Origin: Duganella sp. CF517
Lineage (GTDB): Bacteria; Pseudomonadota; Gammaproteobacteria; Burkholderiales; Burkholderiaceae_D
Assembly (NCBI RefSeq): GCF_900110275.1
Contig: NZ_FODC01000001.1
Location: 969,198 to 1,033,197, forward strand
DNA length: 64,000 nucleotides
Direction: 5' to 3'
The notes beneath the pieces are model-generated. The model was not told the origin of the DNA. It did not search any database and was given only the letters and a program-made list of their open reading frames with translations. This document shows positions 4,921 to 26,656 of the stretch, in pieces. The position numbers and the translations under genes are program-made. Within the stretch, counting starts at the first letter, position 1. Each line of letters opens with the position of its first letter.

Positions 4921-5090
4921 CGGCGCGGCTGCGGGTCGGCCGGCGCCACGCAATCGTCTGTGGACGGCACCAAACCCCAACCAAGCTGACGGCGGATATC
5001 CCCGGTCGACGGCGGCGAGCAGTGTTGCGTCAAACGCTCGCTCATATACTGACGGATCTGTTCTTTGGTCGGCTTGTTCGGCAATTCCAT
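4917..5090 (-). CDS. Small hypothetical protein (57 aa)
   Basis: A 57-residue frame begins MELPNKPTKEQIRQYM and includes GDIRRQLGWGLVP. It has an AGGAG Shine-Dalgarno eight bases ahead of its ATG (minus strand), in a stretch otherwise unoccupied between the pilU-like gene and the ArsC-like gene. The composition (charged helix, then Pro-rich turn and IRRQLGWGL) resembles short conserved proteins I recall from Oxalobacteraceae, but I know of no function. A possible promoter is TTGGTA (5150-5155) and TAATAT (5126-5131) with an 18-base spacer on the minus strand. It contains two Cys residues and no membrane segment. The gene call rests on the ribosome site, the gap it fills and protein-like composition. 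Confidence 0.6.
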   Translation of the reverse strand: MELPNKPTKEQIRQYMSERLTQHCSPPSTGDIRRQLGWGLVPSTDDCVAPADPQPRR

Positions 5091-5279
5091 CCCACGGCTC
5101 CTGATAGTTGTACGACAACCGATCCATATTAGGCAGCGGATACCCGGACTACCAATGTCAATTCGATAAGTGGCAATATCAAATTGTTATACCAGCGGGC
5201 CGAGTGCGTGGCCCCTGCCCGTACCCTCCGCCTGCGCCCCATGGTATTCTGTCGGCCTTTCGCCCGACACCGCACGCAC

Positions 5280-6784
<1,505 letters not shown>

Positions 6785-6844
6785 TTCACCGGCCGGCTGC
6801 CCGCGCGGCGTGCGCGAACCGATTACCGTTATACCGAGATAACC

Positions 6845-7732
6845 ATGAACACGACTCCTTTCACCACGCCGCGCGACCTGTTGCGCTACGCCGTCACCCG
6901 CTTCAACGCCGCCCAGCTGTTTTTCGGCCACGGCAGCGTCGAAGCCTTCGACGAAGCGGCCTACCTGATCCTGCACACGCTCAAGCTCCCGCTGGACAAG
7001 CTGGAGCCGTTCCTGGACGCGCGCCTGCTGCCGGAGGAAGTCGCGTCGGTGCTGGCGGTGATCGACCGCCGCACCGTCGACCGCGTGCCGGCCGCCTACA
7101 TCACCAACGAGGCGTGGCTGGGCACCTACAGCTTCTACGTCGACGAGCGCACCATCGTGCCGCGCTCCTTCATCGCGGAACTGATCCCGGACTACTTCGC
7201 GCCGTGGGTCAACCAGCCCGATAACATCGCCAACATCCTGGAACTGTGCACGGGCTCCGGTTGCCTGGCCATCATGCTGGCCGACGCCTTCCCCGACGCC
7301 CGCGTCGACGCGGTCGACATTTCGGCCGATGCGCTGGAAGTGGCGAAGAAAAACGTCGCCACCTACAAGCTGGAAGACCGCTTGACGCTGATCCAGTCCG
7401 ACCTGTACGCCAATGTGCCGGACAAGAAGTACGACCTGATTATCACCAATCCGCCGTACGTCAATTCGGGTTCGATGTCCAAGCTGCCGAAGGAATACCT
7501 GGCCGAGCCGCAAATCGCCCTCGACGGCGGTAGCGACGGCATGGACCTGGTGCGCAAGATCGTCGCCGGCGCCGCCGAGCGCCTGACCGACGACGGCATC
7601 CTGATCGTCGAAATCGGCAACGAACGCGAATTCGCCGAAGCCGCCTTCGGCGCGCTGGGCCTGACCTGGCTCACCACCAGCGCCGGCGACGACATGGTCT
7701 TCCTGCTGACCGCCGACCAGCTGAAGCTGTAA
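6845..7732 (+). CDS. prmB: Ribosomal protein L3 glutamine N5-methyltransferase (PrmB)
   Basis: SAM-dependent methyltransferase, 295 residues, that methylates a glutamine of ribosomal protein L3. An N-terminal helical domain (about 1-110) precedes a Rossmann methyltransferase domain with the SAM-binding LELCTGSGCLAIMLA (about 135-149), and the glutamine-recognition motif NPPYV. The NPPY motif places it in the HemK/PrmB group. PrmB is preferred over PrmC because of the VNSGSMSKLPKEYLAEPQIALDGG segment and an N-terminal domain resembling PrmB. It sits 60 bases after dapE and 25 before an ABC-F gene that also acts on ribosomes. Confidence 0.92.
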   Translation: MNTTPFTTPRDLLRYAVTRFNAAQLFFGHGSVEAFDEAAYLILHTLKLPLDKLEPFLDARLLPEEVASVLAVIDRRTVDRVPAAYITNEAWLGTYSFYVDERTIVPRSFIAELIPDYFAPWVNQPDNIANILELCTGSGCLAIMLADAFPDARVDAVDISADALEVAKKNVATYKLEDRLTLIQSDLYANVPDKKYDLIITNPPYVNSGSMSKLPKEYLAEPQIALDGGSDGMDLVRKIVAGAAERLTDDGILIVEIGNEREFAEAAFGALGLTWLTTSAGDDMVFLLTADQLKL

Positions 7733-7757
7733 CACCCTCTTTAAAGTACAAGAACCA

Positions 7758-9758
7758 ATGATCCGCTTTATACAAGTAAGTCTGATGCGCGGCACCAAGC
7801 CGCTGTTGGAACAAGTCGATGTCACGCTGAACCCGGGCGACAAGATCGGCCTGATCGGCGCCAACGGCGCCGGCAAATCGAGCCTGTTCGCGATGATGCG
7901 CGGCGAGCTGCACCCGGACCAGGGCGAAATCGACTTCCCGGCCAAATGGCGCGTCGCTTACGTGGCGCAGGAAACGCCGCCGCTGGACCGCGCGGCCCTC
8001 GACTACGCGATCGACGGCGACGTCACCCTGCGCAAGCTGGAAGCGGAACTGGCGCGCCTGGAATCGGAACCCGAATCGTCGGAAAACGGCATCGCCATCG
8101 GCGAAATCTACAGCGCGCTGGCCGACGCCGACGCCTACACCGTGCAGTCGCGCGGCGAACAGCTGCTGCTCGGCCTGGGCTTCACGCTCGACCAGATGCA
8201 GCAGCCGGTGGCCAGCTTCTCCGGCGGCTGGCGCATGCGCCTGAATCTGGCGCAGGCGCTGATGTGCCCTTCCGACCTGCTGCTGCTCGATGAACCGACC
8301 AACCACTTGGACCTGGACGCGATCATCTGGCTGGAAGACTGGCTCAAACGCTATGCCGGCACCCTGCTGATCATCTCCCATGATCGCGACTTCCTCGACG
8401 AAGTGGTCAACGTGGTGGTGCACATCGACGAGCGCAAGCTCAAACGCTACTCGGGCAACTACTCGTCGTTCGAGCGTCAGCGCGCGGCGCAGATGATCCT
8501 GGCGGCCGGCGCGCTGGAAAAGCAGCAGCGCAAGCGCGCCCACCTGGAATCGTTCGTTAACCGCTTCAAGGCGCAGGCCTCCAAGGCCCGCCAGGCGCAA
8601 AGCCGCATGAAGGCGCTGGCCAAGATGGAAGAACTGGCGCCGCTGCGCGCCGCCGCCGAATTCTCGTTCGAGTTCCGCGAGCCGCTGAGCGCTCCGAATC
8701 CGCTGCTGGTGATGGAAGACGTCAACGCCGGCTACGCGATCGAAAACGAAGCGACCGGCGAGATCACCCACAAGACCATCGTCAACAACATCAAGTTCTC
8801 GCTGCAGATCGGCCAGCGTATCGGCCTGCTGGGCGTGAACGGCGCCGGTAAATCGACCCTGATCAAGACCATCGCCGGCGAACTGGCGCCGCTGACCGGC
8901 GACGCCACCATCGGCAAGGGCCTGAACATCGGCTACTTCGCCCAGCACCAGGTGGAGATGCTGCGCCACGACGAATCGCCGCTGTGGCACCTGGCCAAGA
9001 TCGCCCCGACCGTGCGCGAACAGGAGCTGCGCAACTTCCTGGGCGGCTTCAACTTCCCCGGCACCATGGTCACCAGCTCGATCGCGCCGTTCTCCGGCGG
9101 CGAGAAGGCCCGCCTGGCGCTGGCGTTGATCGTTTGGCAGCGCCCCAACCTGCTGCTGCTCGATGAACCGACCAACCACCTGGACCTGGAAACGCGCGAG
9201 GCGCTGACCGAGGCGCTGGCGCAGTTCGAAGGCACGCTGGTCGTGGTCTCCCACGATCGCCACCTGCTGCGCGCCACCACCGACGAATTCATCATCGTCG
9301 CCGACGGCAAGCTGCAACCGTTCGACGGCGATCTGGACGACTACAAGGATTGGCTGTTCAAGACCAAGCTGGGGAAAGGCACCGACGTGCTGCCCGCCGC
9401 CGGCAAGGCCAACAAGACCGACTTCCCGGTGGTGTCGCCGGTCGCCGCGCCGGCGGCAGCCGCGCCGGCCGCCGCCAGCAAGGACCAGAAGCGCCAGCAG
9501 GCCGAGGACCGCCAGCGCCTGGCCACGCTGCGCAAGCCGCTGGAGCAAAAGATCAAGCGCCTGGACGATCAAATCGCCAAGCGCAGCGCGCAAAAAGCCG
9601 AGGTGGATGCCAAGTTGGGCGAGTCTTCGATCTACGAAGCGGCCAACAAGGCCAAGCTGAAACAGCTGCTGGCCGATCAAAGCTTCTTCACCAAGGACCT
9701 GGGCCAGTTGGAAGCGGAATGGCTGGAATTGCAGGAGCAGCTCGAAGCGCTGGCCTGA
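7758..9758 (+). CDS. ABC-F family ATPase (YheS-like ribosome-associated factor)
   Basis: Soluble protein of 666 residues with two ABC ATPase domains and no membrane segment. Domain 1 has Walker A GANGAGKSS (about 34-42), signature SFSGGWRMRLNLAQAL and Walker B LLLLDEPTNHLDL; domain 2 has GVNGAGKST and SGGEKARLALALI with a second DEPTNHLDLE. The interdomain linker is rich in Lys/Arg and carries the KQQRKRAHLESFVNRFKAQASKARQAQSR stretch typical of the P-site tRNA interaction motif. The C-terminus has an Ala/Pro-rich hinge (about 550-580) and a coiled coil (about 585-665). ABC-F proteins act on the ribosome in translation; YheS is the closest E. coli relative. It is unlikely to be a resistance determinant. 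It probably forms a transcription unit with prmB. Confidence 0.92.
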   Translation: MIRFIQVSLMRGTKPLLEQVDVTLNPGDKIGLIGANGAGKSSLFAMMRGELHPDQGEIDFPAKWRVAYVAQETPPLDRAALDYAIDGDVTLRKLEAELARLESEPESSENGIAIGEIYSALADADAYTVQSRGEQLLLGLGFTLDQMQQPVASFSGGWRMRLNLAQALMCPSDLLLLDEPTNHLDLDAIIWLEDWLKRYAGTLLIISHDRDFLDEVVNVVVHIDERKLKRYSGNYSSFERQRAAQMILAAGALEKQQRKRAHLESFVNRFKAQASKARQAQSRMKALAKMEELAPLRAAAEFSFEFREPLSAPNPLLVMEDVNAGYAIENEATGEITHKTIVNNIKFSLQIGQRIGLLGVNGAGKSTLIKTIAGELAPLTGDATIGKGLNIGYFAQHQVEMLRHDESPLWHLAKIAPTVREQELRNFLGGFNFPGTMVTSSIAPFSGGEKARLALALIVWQRPNLLLLDEPTNHLDLETREALTEALAQFEGTLVVVSHDRHLLRATTDEFIIVADGKLQPFDGDLDDYKDWLFKTKLGKGTDVLPAAGKANKTDFPVVSPVAAPAAAAPAAASKDQKRQQAEDRQRLATLRKPLEQKIKRLDDQIAKRSAQKAEVDAKLGESSIYEAANKAKLKQLLADQSFFTKDLGQLEAEWLELQEQLEALA

Positions 9759-19492: not shown

Positions 19493-20208
19493 CGCGGCCG
19501 TCCATCTTCGCCGCCGTGCTGTTGCCGGCTCTGCTGGCCGCGCCGAACGCCGGCGCCGCGCCCTCCGCGACGGCCGCGCCGCGCATCGAACAACGCGCGC
19601 CGACGGCGGCCGAGCGGGAATCGTTCGACGACTTCTTCCGCGCCCGCAACGCCGCGCAACCGCAGCGGCCCTGGGGCGCCGCGCCGTTGTTCGCCCCCGC
19701 GTTCGAAATCGAACGCCAGCGCGGCAAGGCGTGGAACGTGATCGCCAGTGTCGATTCCGCGCCGCGCCGCTCGGCGCCGGATCTGTGCCGGCAAGTGCGC
19801 TCCAGTTTTGTCTACGATGCGGCCAAACCCGGCGGCGAGCGCTGGACCGACGCCGCCGAGGCGCCGCAATGGCACGTGTGGCTGGCGCAACCGAACATTC
19901 CGTGTCAGGCGGCCAGATATACGGTATTGATGGATCAGGCCGTGCCACCGGCAGATGCGGTGGCGTTGCTGAGACAGCACCGCGAGCTGCTGTTGCGCGC
20001 GCGCCTGCTATTCGCCGGCAACTCCGGCTGCGCGCGGCAACGCGCCCTCACCTTCCGGCTGGCGGCGCTGAAGCCGGCGGCGGCGGCGGCCGGCGCGCCG
20101 GTCATGTACGGTTTGGTGTTTGAAAGCGATCGCGACACGACGGCGACGGTCGCCGTGCGCAAGCACCGTGGCGAATATGCCGCCTGGAACGTCAGCTGCT
20201 CCGGTTGA
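19489..20208 (+). CDS. Hypothetical secreted protein coupled to ompR-envZ
   Basis: 239 residues. Its ATG overlaps the envZ stop codon in an ATGA arrangement, implying translational coupling. A signal peptide of about 23 residues (VLLPALLAAPNAGA, cleavage near APS) is followed by a soluble domain. There are four Cys residues at roughly 100, 141, 183 and 236 (LCRQVRSSF, NIPCQAARY, SGCARQRAL, NVSCSG), which suggests two disulfides and a periplasmic location. I do not recognise the family. The position suggests a periplasmic accessory or target of OmpR/EnvZ, but nothing in the sequence proves it. Its last 17 bases overlap the convergent Imm26-like gene. Confidence 0.75.
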   Translation: MTRPSIFAAVLLPALLAAPNAGAAPSATAAPRIEQRAPTAAERESFDDFFRARNAAQPQRPWGAAPLFAPAFEIERQRGKAWNVIASVDSAPRRSAPDLCRQVRSSFVYDAAKPGGERWTDAAEAPQWHVWLAQPNIPCQAARYTVLMDQAVPPADAVALLRQHRELLLRARLLFAGNSGCARQRALTFRLAALKPAAAAAGAPVMYGLVFESDRDTTATVAVRKHRGEYAAWNVSCSG

Positions 20209-20680
20209 TCGGATGCTCGCGCGACTCCAATAGCTTGGTCAGCAGCAACTCGGTCGAACCGTAGCCGTACAGCGAATCGGCCTCCAGCCCGGGCGTATCG
20301 TAGGGCACCGATTCTTCCCGCTCGGAACGGCTAGGATCGTTGTCGGAATATGTCACGCGCCAGGCGCGCTTCAAGGCGTCGGCGCGGCGCAGGAACTGCG
20401 GCATCGGCCACAGTGCCGGATTCCAGTCGACGGCCTCGCCCAGCACGCGCCAATGGCCGCTGGCCAACGCCATGTCGCCCACGCGCAGCACCTTGACGGC
20501 GTCCTGCGGCTGCAGGGTGTTGAGTTCATCGATCGACGGTATCCTGTCGAGCTTGGGCCCGAACAGATAGGCCAGCATGATCTTGCTGCCCGGCGACAAA
20601 CGGGCGACCAAGCCCCAGCCGTACCCGCCATCGAGCAACGGCACCGCAAACCAGCTTCCTTCATGATACGACTGCCTCAT
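20192..20680 (-). CDS. Imm26-like immunity domain protein (orphan)
   Basis: 162 residues. The ATG at 20680 has AAGGAG six bases ahead, which decides the start although the frame runs further upstream. The N-terminus YHEGSWFAVPLLDGGYGWGLVARLSPGSKIMLAYLFGP matches the pattern of immunity protein 26 (Imm26): an EGxWFAVPL motif, a GxGxVAR beta strand and a YFFGP-like turn. Imm26 domains usually protect against polymorphic toxins, yet no toxin gene is adjacent. The family also includes stand-alone proteins of unknown function, so an immunity role is only suggested. It is convergent with the secreted protein downstream of envZ. Confidence 0.6.
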   Translation of the reverse strand: MRQSYHEGSWFAVPLLDGGYGWGLVARLSPGSKIMLAYLFGPKLDRIPSIDELNTLQPQDAVKVLRVGDMALASGHWRVLGEAVDWNPALWPMPQFLRRADALKRAWRVTYSDNDPSRSEREESVPYDTPGLEADSLYGYGSTELLLTKLLESREHPINRSS

Positions 20681-20865
20681 TCCACTCCTTTCGCTAGCGC
20701 GAACCAGCAACGTGGCGCCGAAATGCACTGACGAACAGGACATGGCGCCGCCTCCACATATGCTGTGACTGCTTCATTGACGCCGTGCGGCGCAAACCCG
20801 AAGTGTATCGGCGCGGCGCGAATTGTGTCGCACGCCACCGCGCGCGCCGCCCCCGGCAACGGGTG

Positions 20866-20874
20866 TGATACACT
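20866..20874 (+). promoter_or_regulatory. Extended -10 promoter just ahead of the TPP riboswitch
   Basis: TGATACACT gives an extended -10 (TG, one base, TACACT). No good -35 is visible, as is common for extended -10 promoters. The start of transcription would be near 20881, exactly at the 5' strand of the riboswitch P1 stem. Confidence 0.45.
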
Positions 20875-20880
20875 GCCGGC

Positions 20881-20960
20881 TCGCTAGGGGTCCTGGGCAT
20901 TTTGTTCCGGGTGAGAGATACCCTTCGTACCTGATCTGGATAATGCCAGCGAAGGAAAGC
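20881..20960 (+). promoter_or_regulatory. TPP riboswitch (THI element)
   Basis: The aptamer core is unmistakable: GGGG near 20887-20890, GTGAGAGATACCC (20931-20943 region starts at GTGAGAGA, 20911) and the nearly invariant ACCTGATCTGGATAATGCCAGCG (20929-20951). The P1 stem can form between TCGCT (20881-20885) and AGCGA (20948-20952). TPP riboswitches bind thiamine pyrophosphate and switch off downstream genes. This one lies 70 bases ahead of the TonB-dependent receptor gene and is the only riboswitch I found in the window. Confidence 0.95.
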
Positions 20961-20968
20961 GCAAAGTA

Positions 20969-21026
20969 GTTCTCCCCTCCTTTGATGGCTCTCCTCGCGG
21001 CGTCCAGCCGAGAACAAGCAGAGAGC
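20969..21026 (+). promoter_or_regulatory. Likely translational expression platform of the TPP riboswitch
   Basis: GCTCTC (20988-20993) is exactly complementary to GAGAGC (21021-21026), which contains the ribosome-binding site of the receptor gene. CTCG (20994-20997) pairs with CGAG (21009-21012) to extend the hairpin. The upstream GTTCTC (20969-20974) can pair with GAGAAC (21010-21015) and would compete with the inner stem. There is no T-run, so control at translation initiation fits better than termination. Confidence 0.55.
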
Positions 21027-21030
21027 AGAC

Positions 21031-23190
21031 ATGTCCACACCACATTTCGCAGTTTCCGTCATCGCCCTGGCGGTGTTCCATGCATTTTCCGGCGCCGCCG
21101 TCGCCGCCGAGCCGGCAGTCGAGGCGGCCGGAGCCGCCGCCGAGCAGTCCATGCCGGAGGTCGTCGTCAGCGCCACCAAGGTGCGCGCCACCACCGCCTC
21201 CGTCGCCGGTTTCGGCAACGCCCCGCTGCTGGAAACGCCGGCCTCGGTCAGCGTACTGACGTCGCAGCAAATGCTCGACCTGCAAATCCGCTCGACCACC
21301 GACGCCGCCAAATTCGACGCCAGCCTGAGCGACTCCTACAACGCCGTCGGCTACGCCGAACAATTCTCGATCCGCGGCTTCAAGCTCGACAACGCGTCGA
21401 GCTACCGCAAGGACGGCATGGCGATCCCCGGCGACACCCAGATCCCGCTCGAGAACAAGGAGCGCCTGGAAGTGCTCAAGGGCCTGTCGGGCCTGCAAGC
21501 CGGCGTCTCCGCGCCGGGCGGCATCATTAACTACGTCACCAAACGCCCGACCGACACGCCGCTGCGCACCGTCGTGCTGGAGGCGCGCGAGCGCGGCACC
21601 CTGTATGGCGCCGTCGATGTCGGCGGACGCTTCGAGGATAACCGTTTCGGCTACCGCGTCAACGTCGCCGGCGAGCGCCTGCGCTCCTATATCAAGGGCG
21701 CGGACGGCAACCGCAAGTTCATCTCGGCCGCCTTCGACTGGCGCCTGTCGCCGCAGGCGCTGCTGCAGGTCGATGCCGACTACCAGCGCAAATCCCAACT
21801 GACCGCGCCGGGCTTCCAGCTGTTGGACAACACCACCTTGCCGGTGGTCGACGCCGACACGATGCTCAACAATCAGCCGTGGAGCCGTCCGGTGGAAACC
21901 ACCACTAGCAACATCGGCGCGCGCTTCGAATACAAGTTCTCGTCCGACTGGAGCACCACGGTCAGCGCCAACCAGCACCACTTCAAACGCGACGACTACA
22001 CCGCATTCCCTTACGGCTGCGGCCCGAACTTCTACCCCGGCTACTGCGGCAACGGCGACTACGACGTCTACAACTACGTCAGCCTGGGCGAGAAGAAGTC
22101 GCCGCTGACGATGCAGGCGCTGGTCCAGGGCCGCTTCGCCACCGGCGCGCTGGCGCACCAGTTCACCGGCGGCGCGTCGTTCCAGAAGAACAGCGAAAAA
22201 TGGGGCGATTACATTTACACGGAGTCCGGCCGTAGCAACATCTACCAGCCAGTGGTGGTCGCTCCGGTGGGCGGCGATGTCAACGCCCCAGCCTTCGAAC
22301 GACGCCACGGCAACGAACGCTCCTTGTTCGCCCAGGACATCGTCAGTTTGAATGCGAAGCTTAAACTGCACGCGGGCGCGCGCTACGTGCAGGTCAGGCG
22401 CGTGGAATACGTTGGCCCCAACGACCAAAACGTCCCGCTGCCGGATGCGAATACCGACGTTGGCTTCTGGCTGCCGAATGTGGCGCTGGTCTATAGCCTG
22501 CTTCCCAATGTCTCGCTCTACACCTCGTACGCGCAAGGTTTGGAGCATGGCGGCATCGCGCCGATGCAGACCAAAAACGAGGGGCAGGCGCTGGCGCCGT
22601 CCAAATCCAAGCAGGTGGAAGTCGGAATCAAGGCCGACATCCGCCCGGACCTGAGCGCCACCCTGGCGTTGTTCGAGATCCGCAAGGGACTGGAATATAC
22701 CGACGCCGGCAATTCCTACGTGCGCAATGGCGAGGCGCAGAACCGTGGCCTGGAGATGGCGTTGAACGGCCGCGCCACGCGCGAACTGATGGTGGGCGTG
22801 TCGGCCACCGCGCTCAATACCAGGCAAAGCGATACGGGCCAGGCCAGTTTGGACGGCAAGCGCGTGACCAACGTCGCCGCGTTCAAATCGTCGGTGTATG
22901 CGGATTACGCGGTGCCGCAAATCGAAGGCTTGAATCTGAACGCGAACTGGCAGTACTCGGGCAAGAAGGCTTTCGATCCCGAGAACCAGGTGTTCGTGCC
23001 AAGCTACCATGTGCTCAACCTCGGGGCTTCGTACGCCACGCGCATCGGGGGTGTCTCGACAACCTTGCGCGCCAGCGTGAACAACGCGCTGGACAAGTTC
23101 TACTGGCGCGACGTGACGCAGGATCTGGGTGGATATTTGATGCCGGGTGCTTCGCGCACGTTCCGTGTGTCGGCACAGTTCGACCTGTAA
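21031..23190 (+). CDS. TonB-dependent outer-membrane receptor, TPP-riboswitch controlled
   Basis: 719 residues. The signal peptide (about 1-26, ending AVAAEP) is followed by a TonB-box-like MPEVVVSATK, a plug domain (about 60-170, with LETPASVSVLTSQQMLD, FSIRGFKLDN and LEVLKGLSGLQAGVSAPGGIINYVTKRPT) and a 22-strand beta-barrel that ends FRVSAQFDL. By sequence it looks like a siderophore-type receptor (FhuE/FpvA group). However, the TPP riboswitch in its leader argues that it imports thiamine or a thiamine precursor/derivative, as for the omr1/OMR-type receptors described in comparative genomics of thiamine regulons. It needs TonB-ExbB-ExbD, which are not in the window. It converges on a kinase gene that ends 33 bases away. 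Confidence 0.9.
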   Translation: MSTPHFAVSVIALAVFHAFSGAAVAAEPAVEAAGAAAEQSMPEVVVSATKVRATTASVAGFGNAPLLETPASVSVLTSQQMLDLQIRSTTDAAKFDASLSDSYNAVGYAEQFSIRGFKLDNASSYRKDGMAIPGDTQIPLENKERLEVLKGLSGLQAGVSAPGGIINYVTKRPTDTPLRTVVLEARERGTLYGAVDVGGRFEDNRFGYRVNVAGERLRSYIKGADGNRKFISAAFDWRLSPQALLQVDADYQRKSQLTAPGFQLLDNTTLPVVDADTMLNNQPWSRPVETTTSNIGARFEYKFSSDWSTTVSANQHHFKRDDYTAFPYGCGPNFYPGYCGNGDYDVYNYVSLGEKKSPLTMQALVQGRFATGALAHQFTGGASFQKNSEKWGDYIYTESGRSNIYQPVVVAPVGGDVNAPAFERRHGNERSLFAQDIVSLNAKLKLHAGARYVQVRRVEYVGPNDQNVPLPDANTDVGFWLPNVALVYSLLPNVSLYTSYAQGLEHGGIAPMQTKNEGQALAPSKSKQVEVGIKADIRPDLSATLALFEIRKGLEYTDAGNSYVRNGEAQNRGLEMALNGRATRELMVGVSATALNTRQSDTGQASLDGKRVTNVAAFKSSVYADYAVPQIEGLNLNANWQYSGKKAFDPENQVFVPSYHVLNLGASYATRIGGVSTTLRASVNNALDKFYWRDVTQDLGGYLMPGASRTFRVSAQFDL

Positions 23191-23222
23191 AGCGAAATCC
23201 GCAGGCGGCGCGGCGACGGCGA

Positions 23223-23759
23223 TTACGGCATCGCCGCCAACAACCGCTCCACCTGCGCCAGCCGCTGCTGCGGCGCGCCCGATACCAGCACATACGGTAT
23301 CCGGCGCGCCGCCAATTCCTCCATCAGCATAAGGTTGATGGTAACGCTGACCTGCTCGGACTCGCGCTGCAAACCGTCGGCGACCCACGGAATGTCCGGC
23401 GCGGTCACCAGGGTCAGCGCATAGTCGCGCTGGTGCCCGTCGGCCAGCCGCGCCAATTGATCGTCGATGCCGCCGAAATAATGACGGCTGTAGACCGCCG
23501 TCATCAGCGGCGCCGTATCGCAGAACAGGTACCCGTACGCCGAGCGCGCCGCCGCGTCCTCGCGTTCACGTTGCGTACTGGCGATATGGAACTGGTCAGC
23601 CGCCACCGGAACCCGCCGCCCCACATCGACGAATTCGCGCAGATACTCCGGCACCCAGACCGTCCGATAGCGCGCGGCCAACGCCGCCGCCAAGGTGGTC
23701 TTGCCCGAGGAGGCCGGGCCCAGTATCGCCACGCGCCGTGGCATGGCCGCCAGCGTCAT
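23223..23759 (-). CDS. NadR-like AAA/P-loop nucleoside (vitamin) kinase
   Basis: 178 residues. Walker A GPASSGKTT (about 13-21) is followed by VPEYLREFVD, FCDTAPLMTAVYS, and VTAPDIPWVADGLQRES. The TPWVADGLR-like motif is typical of the ribosylnicotinamide kinase domain of NadR. Here it stands alone, without the NadR adenylyltransferase or helix-turn-helix domain. Its start overlaps the stop of the PnuC-family gene (ATGA), which strongly suggests that it phosphorylates the transported compound. Classical substrate: nicotinamide riboside. Because the neighbouring receptor is under TPP control, thiamine or a thiamine moiety is a serious alternative. The substrate is inferred, not shown. Confidence 0.8.
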   Translation of the reverse strand: MTLAAMPRRVAILGPASSGKTTLAAALAARYRTVWVPEYLREFVDVGRRVPVAADQFHIASTQREREDAAARSAYGYLFCDTAPLMTAVYSRHYFGGIDDQLARLADGHQRDYALTLVTAPDIPWVADGLQRESEQVSVTINLMLMEELAARRIPYVLVSGAPQQRLAQVERLLAAMP

Positions 23760-24436
23760 TCTAGTACCAGCCTGCGGCCGCCGGTTTCCTCGCCGCCGCT
23801 ACCGCCACCGCCCGCCCCCATGCCGGCCGACTGCTGCCACGTGCGCAGGCCGACCACCGCCATGCCGACGAAGACAGCGTACAGGATCGCCGTCAGCATC
23901 AAGTGCTTGTGCAGATAGAGTCCGACATACAGCACATCGACAACGATCCAGACATGCCAGTTCTCGATCTTCTTACGCGACAGCAGCAGCTGTCCGACCA
24001 GACTGCCGGCGGTTAGGAAACCATCGGAGCGCGGCACGTCGGTATCGGTGTAGGTCTTGAGGAACCACGCCAGCAGCACGAAGCCGGCCAGCCACGCCGC
24101 CACGGCGATCCAGCGGCCGCGCGCGTCGAGCGCGCTGACCGCGAGCCGTTCGTGGCGGTCATTCCCGTGCAGCCACTGGTACCAGCCATAGAACGACACC
24201 GAAATGAACACCAGTTGCAGCCCCATGTCGCCGTACAGCCGCGAGCCGTAGAACACCAGCCCGTAGGTGGCCGACGAGATGATGGCGAACAGCCAGGCCC
24301 AATGGCTCTGGCGGATGTTGAGCCACACCGTGGCCACCGCCAGGATGAACGACACCAGTTCCAACGGGGTCGTGGCGAATCCCGCCAGATGCAGCGGCAA
24401 ATTCAGGTACCCCAACAGAACCGATAATTCGTGCAT
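23756..24436 (-). CDS. PnuC-family vitamin transporter (PnuC/PnuT)
   Basis: 226 residues with seven predicted membrane helices and the family motifs LYGDMGLQLVFISVSFYGWYQW and ENWHVWIVVDVLYVGLYLHK followed by LTAILYAVF. PnuC carries nicotinamide riboside and PnuT carries thiamine by facilitated diffusion; both need intracellular phosphorylation to trap the substrate. The gene overlaps the S46 peptidase stop by one base (TAATG) and the kinase start by four bases, so all three form one tight operon. The proximity of the TPP-riboswitch receptor makes PnuT (thiamine) the favoured subtype. The sequence alone does not settle it. Confidence 0.85.
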   Translation of the reverse strand: MHELSVLLGYLNLPLHLAGFATTPLELVSFILAVATVWLNIRQSHWAWLFAIISSATYGLVFYGSRLYGDMGLQLVFISVSFYGWYQWLHGNDRHERLAVSALDARGRWIAVAAWLAGFVLLAWFLKTYTDTDVPRSDGFLTAGSLVGQLLLSRKKIENWHVWIVVDVLYVGLYLHKHLMLTAILYAVFVGMAVVGLRTWQQSAGMGAGGGGSGGEETGGRRLVLE

Positions 24437-26574
24437 TATTTTTTCGCCGGATATTTAATGGTCATCTCTTTGAGCAGGTTGTCGGCATGATCGACTTCGC
24501 TCATCACCCACAGCATATACCGGATATCCAGATGGATAGCGCGGGTGATGGCGGGATCGAAATACCAGTCTTTGGTGATCGACTCGTAGGTCGAATCGAA
24601 GTTCAGCCCGATCAACTCGCCCCTGCGGTTCATCACCGCCGAGCCGGAATTGCCGCCGGTGGTATCGGCGCTGCTCAAAAAGTCGACCGGCACGGTGCCG
24701 AGGACGGCGTCCTTGAATGGTCCGTAGCGCTTGGCCTTGATGGCGTCGAGCTCCCGTTGCGGCGCGTTGAACGGATCTTTGCCGGTATGCTTCTCGACGA
24801 TGCCTTCGACGGTGGTGAACGGTCCCTTGCTGATGCCGTCGCGCGGCGAATACGGCGCCACGGTGCCGTAGGTGACGCGCAAGGTGCCATTCGCGTCCGG
24901 GTACACCGGCTTGCCCTGCGATTTCTTCCACGCGATGACGGCTTCCATGTAGCGCGGGATCACGCGCTCCAGGTTTCCGTCCAATTCCTTGCGGCGGTCC
25001 TTGAGCGACTGCGCCGCGCCGTCCAGCTTTGCCGCCAGTTGCATGAAGGCGTCGTCCGATGCCTTGACGGCGGCGGCGTCCTTGCCGATCCACGCCAGCC
25101 GCGTGGCGGTGTCGCCCAGTCCCGTCCCGGCGTACAGCGCCGGCACCGCCTCGGGCGCCGGCAGCAGCGGGTCGAGGCCCGCCACGTGCATGGACTTGGG
25201 CAGTTTGGCGTAGCGCCGCAGCGCCGCCACGAAACGCGCCTGGTCCACCTCCGCCACGTACGACTGTTCCAGCCGGTTCAGGCGCGCCTTGATGAAGGTC
25301 GCGTCGCGCTGCTGGAAACCGGTCTCGCGCTCGGCGTCAGGCTTCGCCCCTTCCAGCGCCAGCCGATGCAGGGTGGCGGCGCTTTTCAGCAGCTCGCCGG
25401 TGGTGGCGACGCTGTAGCCGAACTCCTCGTCGCCCAGCGCGATGTCGGCGGCGATCACCGCGTCCAGCTCCGCCAGCAGCGTTTTCGACACGTCCTTCTG
25501 CGCCGCGTACCAGGCGCGGAATTGCGCGTCCTGCACGTCCTTGACGGCGGCGATGTCCTTGCGCGCGAAACCGTCCATCAGGCCCTGCGATTTCTTCATC
25601 ACGTTGTTCAGGCTCTTGGCGACGCTGGCGTAGCGCACTTCCGCCGCCGGTTTGCCCTTGGTAGCGGCGGCGATGACGTCGAGATCGGCCTGGATTTCGG
25701 CCACGCGCGCCGGATAACCGACGTCGCGCGCGGCGCGGATCTCCGACGGCAGCTTGTAGCGGCTGGTGCGGCCCGGATAACCGGCCAGCAGCACCGGGTC
25801 GCCGTTCTTCAACCCCTCGGCCGACAGCACCAGGAAGTCCTTCGATTGATACGGTACGTTGTCCGGCGACGGATCGGCCGGACGGCCGTCCTTGCCCACG
25901 TAGGCGCGCAGGAACGCGAAGTCGCCGGTATGGCGCGGCCATTCGTAGTTATCGACGTCGCCGCCGTAGTTGCCGATCATGTCCGGCGGCGCGTAGACCA
26001 GGCGCACGTCGCGTATCATCATTTGTCGGATGCGGTAGTATTCCAGCCCGCGATGGAAGGCCGGCACCGAGCACCGGTAGATCCTGTCGGTTTCGCATTC
26101 GGCGATCAGCGCCTTGACGGCTTTTTCCACCGCGTCGTGGCGCTGCTTGCCGCTCATCGCGGGCGTGACGCCTTCGAGCACGCGGGCGGTGACGTTTTCC
26201 ACCTTGTCGGTCACATACACCAGCGAATTGGGGCCGCCGGGCAGCTCCTGCGCGCGGGTCTTGGCCAGGAAGCCGTCGACGATGTAATTGTGCTCCGGCG
26301 TCGCGTTGCGCTGGATGGCGCCATAGGCGCAGTGGTGGTTGGTGACCACCAGGCCGGCGTCGGACACGAACGACGCCGAACAGCCGGGCAGCGCGACAAT
26401 GGCGCTCATCGGATGCTTGGACAGGTCGGCCAGCTTTTCGGCCGGGATGGCGATGCCGATGCGTTGTAGTTCGGATTTCAGCTGCGGCAATTGGTATGGC
26501 TGCCACTGCCCTTCGTCGGCGTGAGCCGCCGCCGCGCCGAGGATAGCGGCCGGCAGCACTAGATATTTTAACAA
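24436..26574 (-). CDS. S46-family dipeptidyl-peptidase (DPP7/DPP11 type)
   Basis: 712 residues. Signal peptide about 1-19 (AAILGAAAAHADEGQ), so the enzyme is periplasmic or secreted. The S46 chymotrypsin-like catalytic triad is visible: His in GLVVTNHHCAYG (about 79-80), Asp in DNYEWPRHTGDFAFLRAYVG (near 225) and Ser in TTGGNSGSAV (about 643), with the alpha-helical exopeptidase domain inserted between. S46 enzymes release dipeptides from peptide N-termini. At the S1-pocket position, 18 residues after the catalytic Ser, Porphyromonas DPP7 has Gly and DPP11 has Arg; here the residue is Ser (FDSTYES). It is the first gene of an operon with a PnuC-family carrier and a kinase. Confidence 0.92.
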   Translation of the reverse strand: MLKYLVLPAAILGAAAAHADEGQWQPYQLPQLKSELQRIGIAIPAEKLADLSKHPMSAIVALPGCSASFVSDAGLVVTNHHCAYGAIQRNATPEHNYIVDGFLAKTRAQELPGGPNSLVYVTDKVENVTARVLEGVTPAMSGKQRHDAVEKAVKALIAECETDRIYRCSVPAFHRGLEYYRIRQMMIRDVRLVYAPPDMIGNYGGDVDNYEWPRHTGDFAFLRAYVGKDGRPADPSPDNVPYQSKDFLVLSAEGLKNGDPVLLAGYPGRTSRYKLPSEIRAARDVGYPARVAEIQADLDVIAAATKGKPAAEVRYASVAKSLNNVMKKSQGLMDGFARKDIAAVKDVQDAQFRAWYAAQKDVSKTLLAELDAVIAADIALGDEEFGYSVATTGELLKSAATLHRLALEGAKPDAERETGFQQRDATFIKARLNRLEQSYVAEVDQARFVAALRRYAKLPKSMHVAGLDPLLPAPEAVPALYAGTGLGDTATRLAWIGKDAAAVKASDDAFMQLAAKLDGAAQSLKDRRKELDGNLERVIPRYMEAVIAWKKSQGKPVYPDANGTLRVTYGTVAPYSPRDGISKGPFTTVEGIVEKHTGKDPFNAPQRELDAIKAKRYGPFKDAVLGTVPVDFLSSADTTGGNSGSAVMNRRGELIGLNFDSTYESITKDWYFDPAITRAIHLDIRYMLWVMSEVDHADNLLKEMTIKYPAKK

Positions 26575-26656
26575 GATAAAAGCCCCTGATTGAGTTCAGC
26601 GGCAGTATATTCCTTATGCGGATGGCTGAAAATGCTTTTTGCGCATCGCCGGACCG

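Follow-up and report, generated by a model that had tools for sequence, protein, structure and literature searches.

A TPP riboswitch-linked receptor, a PnuC-family carrier and a NadR-like kinase as a candidate thiamine import and trapping module in Oxalobacteraceae

PnuC-family carriers and NadR-type kinases are named for nicotinamide riboside salvage, and a gene pair of this kind facing a receptor gene headed by a thiamine pyrophosphate (TPP) riboswitch raises the question of which vitamin the pair serves. We analysed such a locus in a window of 64,000 nucleotides from Duganella sp. CF517. Its features, in window coordinates, are as follows.

20876..20974, plus strand: TPP riboswitch aptamer (RF00059, 66 bits, full model 1-105)
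20975..21030, plus strand: leader from aptamer to receptor (sequence)
21031..23190, plus strand: candidate outer-membrane receptor for thiamine, TonB-dependent, 719 aa (PF00593, PF07715)
23223..23759, minus strand: candidate thiamine kinase of 178 aa, a stand-alone P-loop kinase (AAA_28) similar to NadR-RNK (PF13521)
23756..24436, minus strand: candidate thiamine facilitator of the PnuC family, PnuT-like, 226 aa (PF04973, 185.9 bits)
24436..26574, minus strand: DPP7-like S46 dipeptidyl-peptidase, opening the operon of carrier and kinase (PF10459, 766 bits)
26604..26632, minus strand: weak promoter-like site ahead of the S46 gene (9/12 consensus bases)

The initial annotation had placed a TPP riboswitch ahead of a TonB-dependent receptor, and this is borne out. 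In a covariance-model search the aptamer exceeded the RF00059 gathering score of 54.3 (E 9.6e-11) and was the sole match above a gathering score within the 64 kb window; the receptor contains both plug (57.1 bits) and barrel (162.1 bits) domains. On the opposite strand a tight operon of carrier and kinase had been described. Both genes are there, the carrier with its NMN_transporter domain, and they overlap in an ATGA; the operon, however, has three genes rather than two, in the order S46 peptidase, carrier, kinase, the end of the peptidase gene overlapping the carrier start by one base in a TAATG. The operon end does face the receptor, stop codon to stop codon, with 32 bases between them and not 33. 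No riboswitch was found upstream of the operon in the covariance-model search of the window. The fold of the aptamer plus leader was no better than that of shuffled sequences (z -1.31, 22 of 200 shuffles at least as good), and promoter and terminator scans stayed at chance level, the two promoter-like sites found being not above shuffles (mean 1.2, sd 1.2).

The closest named families and folds, PnuC and NadR, would suggest nicotinamide riboside salvage by the carrier-kinase pair (PnuC plus RNK), with the neighbourhood of the TPP-linked receptor an accident of genome history. The recurrence of that neighbourhood argues against this reading. Close kinase orthologues, taken at no less than 52% identity and clearly apart from a 33-44% group, occur in 33 of 97 genomes of the family (in two pieces in G018). 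A second TPP riboswitch is present in 31 of these 33 genomes versus 3 of the 64 without a close orthologue (Fisher p 1.3e-19, uncorrected for kinship; matches with E up to 0.001 were counted, weak ones included), and in 26 of the 33 no more than 8 kb separates the kinase from the riboswitch-headed receptor. Among 80 named loci the carrier is directly upstream of the kinase in 79 under a non-overlap rule (in the 80th, L192, the two genes overlap), the receptor faces the kinase in 75, and a riboswitch precedes the kinase-facing receptor in 72. Comparison of neighbourhoods across the family, as had been proposed, thus finds receptor, carrier and kinase kept as a unit beside a TPP riboswitch. Since the arrangement is kept in tens of genomes, the riboswitch-receptor unit facing the carrier and kinase genes is genuine and not due to chance. 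The whole module also occurs in Methylobacillus rhizosphaerae (L221), a member of another taxonomic order. The S46 peptidase gene is near in 62 of the 80 loci, and in 39 it immediately precedes the carrier gene; we know of no link between this peptidase and thiamine, and for that reason treat it as probably a passenger.

A riboswitch model (R1) trained on 25 riboswitches from the family detected 15 of 15 canonical PnuT loci, a set selected for its Rfam riboswitch matches, and none of 14 NadR-type kinase loci from the family, 10 of which carry the NMNAT motif. Because R1 was trained on family riboswitches, its matches in the family's loci are not independent of the first riboswitch count. At kinase loci outside the family, 0 of 36 had a riboswitch in the stretch read.

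In one orthologue locus (L057) the carrier gene, which in the window is not downstream of the riboswitch, comes under it: all on one strand are the riboswitch (5012-5110), receptor (5163-7340), carrier (7375-7995) and kinase (7992-8516). This too speaks against nicotinamide riboside salvage. It also qualifies the earlier proposal that TPP would control the outer-membrane step only, which fits the anatomy of the window and of most relatives but not L057, where the riboswitch heads all three genes. The collinear order was seen in this one genome only.

The kinase itself belongs to the riboside kinase fold. Its only Pfam match is to PF13521 (114.7 bits), and its only NCBIfam matches at E up to 0.001 are to two NadR models, the better of which (TIGR01526) stays below its cut-off and is matched only at positions 162-318 of 325, the kinase half. 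Neither the ThiK model TIGR02721 (E up to 0.001) nor thiamine pyrophosphokinase PF04263 matched the protein, and the NMN adenylyltransferase and HTH domains are absent from its 178 residues. An AlphaFold2 model (mean pLDDT 92.2) has the RNK-type P-loop kinase fold, with NadR chains as its best PDB matches (top 8x7f_A, TM 0.86 by query length). In the kinase tree, by contrast, the window kinase falls outside the NadR group, and its close orthologues form a clade apart from NadR, although they are not strictly one group, kinases of other Burkholderiales being nested inside with weak support. Residues in the helix after strand 2 contrast sharply between the orthologues and the NadR group: residue 40, after the EY motif, is Leu in 32 of 32 aligned orthologues versus Gly in 23 of 23 members of the NadR group, of which 19 have, in the same open frame, what we take to be the NMNAT motif and 4 (L074-L077) were placed by hand after inspection. 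Residue 131 is Gln instead of the NadR-group Arg in 30 of 32 orthologues. L062 was left out of the tree and the residue count because the P-loop pattern failed to match it; its kinase likewise reads EYLRE.

Nicotinamide riboside salvage does draw some support from the genomic background. Besides the module carrier, the window genome encodes an NR-type PnuC (C14:79928-80464), and the module kinase is the only NadR-type protein found in it; within the same family PnuC can lie beside a full NadR, as at L070, where a nearby gene resembles NAMPT by eye. On the other hand, four genomes (G040, G048, G092 and G094) hold the module kinase and a full NadR elsewhere. The initial annotation had named homologues consistently accompanying NAD genes as the outcome that would speak against thiamine; this is not so for the close orthologues, whereas full NadR does occur among the more distant pairs of PnuC and kinase, and other such pairs show no vitamin signal. 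We regard nicotinamide riboside salvage as an unlikely account of the module.

The carrier is less decisive. In its tree, calculated without the short L074, the window carrier is not among the 12 canonical gamma-proteobacterial PnuT proteins but in a clade of its own with other Burkholderiales, and the branch that separates it from NadR-linked carriers has a support of only 87/80. At 11 columns that tell TPP-linked from NadR-linked carriers (counted without L143, a long branch), it is TPP-like at 4, NadR-like at 3 and neither at 4. Trp at position 46, considered as a PnuT-like mark, was discarded, as it is also present in 8 of 8 other solo loci.

The background of thiamine genes shows where such a kinase would fit. 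ThiL scores above its cut-off in 93 of the 97 family genomes, including all 33 with the kinase. Thiamine pyrophosphokinase (TPK), the type to which we take Tnr3 to belong, was found in 1 of 97, which is not the window genome. A search of the window genome with the ThiK model gave no match, although this model is a weak test, the ThiK-like kinases of canonical operons themselves reaching no more than 48-73 bits where the cut-off is 299; weak matches of 20-41 bits appear in 10 of the 33 kinase genomes. ThiC is unmatched in four family genomes (G007, G020, G087 and G095), none with a close kinase orthologue; G046, G078 and G091, whose only ThiC matches were partial, under the cut-off and located at contig ends, were not counted as missing. 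No genome with the module but without ThiC was found among the 33, so no natural auxotroph tests the module.

We consider it likely that the locus serves to import and trap thiamine, the substrate being read from its context. The TPP-controlled receptor would use TonB energy to bring thiamine across the outer membrane, and the PnuC-family carrier would allow its diffusion through the inner membrane. The NadR-like P-loop kinase would then convert thiamine to thiamine monophosphate, which could not leave the cell, and housekeeping ThiL would make TPP from it; high TPP would shut off the receptor through the riboswitch. Thiamine as the substrate of the NadR-like kinase, first suggested in the initial annotation, agrees with the linkage to TPP riboswitches, with L057, with ThiL in most family genomes and TPK in only one, and with a clade outside NadR; substrate, activity and regulation are what we infer from these genomic data.

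Comparable importers are known. As described in PMC5613172, the Bacteroides OMthi, PnuT and Tnr3 system combines TPP riboswitches, a TonB-dependent receptor, a PnuC-family carrier and an adjoining enzyme gene, and split versions have the receptor apart. The window locus shares the riboswitch, the outer-membrane receptor, the carrier and the enzyme gene beside it, but its enzyme is a NadR-like P-loop kinase in place of Tnr3, there termed a thiamine pyrophosphorylase (PMC5613172), and its riboswitch heads the receptor only. Canonical gamma-proteobacterial TPP operons (L129-L135, L137-L141) encode a receptor, a small protein, PnuT and a ThiK-like kinase, with receptor, PnuC-family carrier and kinase in the same functional order as here. 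Their components differ: the receptors are barely related to the window receptor (five matches, E 2.6e-6 to 0.04), the carriers form a different clade, and the kinase after PnuT is of the APH/ThiK kind (three tested). Most also have the extra small gene; the one tested, in L131, resembles Thiamine_BP with a score of 24.8 bits, marginally below the cut-off of 24.9. Two receptors encoded behind TPP riboswitches in other families (L136 and L142) share 36-38% identity with the window receptor.

PnuC-NadR salvage shares with the window a PnuC-family carrier and an RNK-kind P-loop kinase; the module kinase differs in having no NMNAT or HTH part, in its clade, in Leu40 for Gly and Gln131 for Arg (the latter in 30 of 32), and in its TPP link. 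Nearer relatives are Burkholderiales loci with eno, ftsB, pnuC and a kinase gene (L082, L085-L087, L090; eno and ftsB identified by eye), whose carriers are sisters of the window carrier (100/100) and whose kinases fall in its clade (98/92). Unlike the window, they show no receptor match and no TPP riboswitch within the 13-16 kb read.

A precursor, hydroxymethylpyrimidine (HMP) or hydroxyethylthiazole, might be imported and phosphorylated instead of thiamine. TPP riboswitches also control precursor transporters, and within one genus of the family three genomes have a third TPP riboswitch ahead of a permease, CytX-like in the one tested (L116; TIGR02358, below cut-off). Such a permease, however, would already take care of HMP in the genomes that have it; PMC7749635 and PMC5613172 describe PnuC relatives linked to TPP as carriers of thiamine, and a riboside kinase pocket would be nearer in size to thiamine than to HMP. 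Precursor import seems to us improbable. Dual use of the kinase on thiamine and nicotinamide riboside, with the receptor serving thiamine, is suggested by the window genome, where one such kinase accompanies two PnuC types and might also act on nicotinamide riboside, but it is very improbable given the separate NadR of several relatives and the residue contrast after strand 2.

Returning to thiamine import and trapping, the NadR-fold kinase would stand in for ThiK or TPK in the importer. We lean towards the view that a branch of NadR-type (AAA_28) riboside kinases, unrelated to ThiK (APH fold) and TPK, turned thiamine kinase, took the kinase slot of the receptor-PnuT-kinase system in Oxalobacteraceae and spread as a whole module. 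A search of CC-licensed PMC papers found no report of a NadR-like kinase tied to thiamine.

If this is true, the NadR fold would offer an example of acceptor choice shifting from a riboside to thiamine, with a few residues as candidates for the change. Many Oxalobacteraceae genes of the NadR-like kinase and nicotinamide riboside carrier families would then be vitamin B1 genes, and the family would have a thiamine kinase where the known kinds went undetected. The locus also cautions against naming PnuC-family carriers from homology alone.

In this 64-kb window from a Duganella-group bacterium, the only Rfam match above the gathering score is a TPP riboswitch, which lies at one edge of the unit listed here.

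Features of the locus (window coordinates)
20876-20974, strand of the receptor: TPP riboswitch (Rfam match, 66 bits)
21031-23190, same strand, downstream of the riboswitch: TonB-dependent receptor, 719 aa
26574-24436, opposite strand, first in transcription order: S46 dipeptidyl-peptidase
24436-23756, opposite strand, second in transcription order: PnuC-family carrier
23759-23223, opposite strand, third in transcription order: AAA_28 kinase, 178 aa

The initial annotation had described a riboswitch-controlled receptor facing a two-gene operon of carrier and kinase. The facing arrangement stands, with 32 bases separating the ends of the receptor and kinase genes. The operon, however, is one of three genes: the S46 peptidase gene comes first and overlaps the carrier gene by one base (TAATG), and carrier and kinase genes overlap by four (ATGA). 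A small protein encoded upstream of the riboswitch on the opposite strand (20192-20743) matches the immunity protein Imm26.

The proposed tie of kinase, carrier and receptor to a TPP riboswitch was borne out by neighbourhood comparison across the 97 genomes of the family. A kinase relative is present in 38 of them, 33 with a close orthologue (at least 52% identity) and 5 with only distant ones (33-44%), and the carrier lies directly 5' of the kinase in all close-orthologue loci read (32 and the window). When TPP riboswitch matches up to E 0.001 were taken, some under the family's cut-off, two or more were found in 31 of the 33 kinase genomes versus 3 of the 64 without the kinase (Fisher p 1.3e-19, kinship not corrected). 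One riboswitch sits upstream of thiC where coordinates were compared (for example in G000, the window's genome, G001 and G040). In 26/33 kinase genomes the kinase has riboswitch and receptor at most 8 kb away; in three others the riboswitch is more distant (about 14 kb in G081, 155 kb on the same contig in G063, a different contig in G032) and precedes a receptor sharing 52-57% identity with that of the window; in G019, G064, G086 and G091 the kinase is on a contig of only 4-11 kb. No second riboswitch was found in two kinase genomes, the assemblies G086 (~1080 contigs) and G091 (~610 contigs); the receptor behind the single G091 riboswitch shares 56% identity with that of the window. The three genomes with a second riboswitch but without the kinase are G017, which has the receptor truncated by a contig end (62% identity), and G025 and G078, whose riboswitch is directed off a contig end. 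Three genomes of one genus carry a third TPP riboswitch before a permease (L116:7359-8815, L117:6781-8226, L118:6982-8440); the L116 permease, the one tested, is CytX-like, a putative HMP transporter with a TIGR02358 match below cut-off.

A search of named genomes with a kinase profile retrieved 349 relatives, and the 80 best were used; these loci overlap the family set (for example L207 and G022) and are not mutually independent. They come from Duganella, Rugamonas, Massilia, Janthinobacterium, Pseudoduganella, Telluria, Undibacterium, one Methylobacillus and some unnamed Oxalobacteraceae/Burkholderiales, and the kinase nearest to the window's among these 80, at 84% identity, is that of Duganella sp. 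1411. In 79/80 loci the end of the carrier falls less than 200 bases short of the kinase, and in L192 the two overlap; a receptor faces the kinase in 75, and in 72 the receptor match is preceded, 48-173 bases ahead of its start, by a TPP riboswitch. No riboswitch was found in the stretch read at the remaining eight: in L161, L192 and L228 the receptor extends to the edge of that stretch, and in L198, L205, L208, L220 and L224 no receptor was found in it. The S46 peptidase gene is immediately 5' of the carrier in 39/80 loci, and it shows no evident functional link to the unit. Methylobacillus rhizosphaerae (Nitrosomonadales, L221) carries the whole unit in the same layout as the window, a distribution that may reflect transfer of the functional unit as a whole.

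The gene order of one genome, G057, gives the clearest indication that carrier and kinase are part of thiamine metabolism. There (L057) a single strand carries, in this order, the riboswitch (5012-5110), the receptor (5163-7340), the carrier (7375-7995) and the kinase (7992-8516); the receptor gene is 34 bases from the carrier gene, which overlaps the kinase gene by ATGA, so that all three genes are behind the TPP riboswitch. In both congeners sampled (L041, L056) the layout is convergent, as in the window.

A riboswitch model built from the family's own TPP riboswitches matched 15/15 canonical PnuT loci, which had been picked because Rfam had shown a riboswitch there, and gave no match in 14 loci with distant NadR-type kinases of the family, in 36 kinase loci outside the family or in 5 other PnuC loci. 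In ten of the 14 NadR-type loci the NMNAT motif shares the reading frame of the kinase, which makes the protein a full NadR; the other four were assigned by hand. Full NadR and stand-alone kinase coexist in G040, G048, G092 and G094. At one of the ten full-NadR loci, L070:3306-8510, neighbouring genes encode a NAMPT-like protein (identified by eye), a TonB-dependent receptor (28% identical to the window's), a PnuC and the NadR, in that order; they are a candidate set for NR uptake that includes a dedicated outer-membrane receptor.

The best named relatives of the kinase are NadR proteins, the match being limited to the ribosylnicotinamide-kinase half (model positions 162-318 of 325); the gene stands alone, without the remainder of NadR. 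An AlphaFold2 model built on an alignment of 31 orthologues (mean pLDDT 92.2) has NadR chains as its closest solved folds (8x7f_A, TM 0.86; 1lw7, TM 0.80). In a tree of 82 rows, the orthologues share one clade (98/92) with kinases of other Burkholderiales, separate from NadR. Eleven positions, selected because they differ between the groups, distinguish the orthologues from the NadR group, and six of them (40, 43, 44, 49, 51, 56) fall in the helix after strand 2, the loop behind it and the beginning of the helix that follows. At position 40 the residue is Leu in 32/32 orthologues and 6/6 sister kinases, Gly in 23/23 of the NadR group and Val in 11/11 pseudomonad kinases. From these residues we infer that the acceptor pocket may be altered. 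The pseudomonad PnuC-kinase pairs with this Val form a further clade (L095, L098-L100, L102, L103, L105-L107, L109, L114), with a uppP-like gene nearby in three loci read (L098, L106, L114).

In the PnuC-family tree (89 proteins), the window's carrier belongs to a clade of 33 (98/86) that is sister to carriers of other Burkholderiales (100/100). Two groups of NadR-linked carriers and 12 canonical gamma-proteobacterial PnuT lie across a branch with only 87/80 support, and carrier residues fail to discriminate thiamine from NR. The sister loci gave no vitamin signal: in L082, L085, L086, L087 and L090 the pair of the window's clades stands behind eno-/ftsB-like genes, with no riboswitch and no receptor in the 13-16 kb read, and L089 (G115) has the kinase and no PnuC match. 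Other TPP-linked carriers (L136, L142 and the long-branched L143) cluster with three Burkholderiales carriers beside an APH-type kinase, an assignment tested in L143 and L148; in L143 a kinase of this kind is behind the TPP riboswitch.

The window's receptor shares 36-38% identity with receptors of two other families that follow TPP riboswitches (L136, L142) and 40-43% with receptors adjoining a PnuC-family gene in other Burkholderiales (L146-L148), whereas those of gamma-proteobacterial TPP operons are barely related to it. Receptor and carrier thus recur together while the kinase varies; in L136 no kinase follows the carrier. L146 (1076-5172), L147 and L148 (2445-6589) pair a homologous receptor with a PnuC-family carrier, L146 and L148 also having a kinase of ~400 aa of the APH family (family tested in L148). 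No TPP riboswitch was found in these three loci, which are possibly a further thiamine uptake variant.

ThiL scores above cut-off in 93/97 family genomes, including all 33 kinase genomes, and ThiC is matched in 93/97; TPK was found in 1/97 and not in the window's genome. Imported thiamine would need some kinase ahead of ThiL. The ThiK model finds nothing in the window's genome and, across the family, no match that exceeds the cut-off; weak matches (best 41 bits) occur in 31/97 genomes, 10 of them kinase genomes, and since ThiK-like kinases of canonical operons themselves score only 48-73 bits, a distant ThiK may exist elsewhere in those genomes. The kinase could also serve NR, because another PnuC-family gene of the window's genome (G000:C14:79928-80464; L144:5821-6507) groups with the NR-type, NadR-linked carriers, and neither NadR nor any NadR-type kinase besides the window's was found in this genome. 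Thiamine precursors are a conceivable substrate as well. To judge from sequence comparison, the module as a whole is probably devoted to thiamine, and it is moderately likely that its kinase is a thiamine kinase of the NadR fold. Canonical TPP operons have a ThiK-like kinase gene after PnuT (three tested) and Bacteroides a Tnr3 gene (PMC5613172), whereas here a NadR-like kinase occupies that slot. The uptake module is real, conserved and linked to TPP; systems of its kind are known, and what is unusual about it is the kinase.
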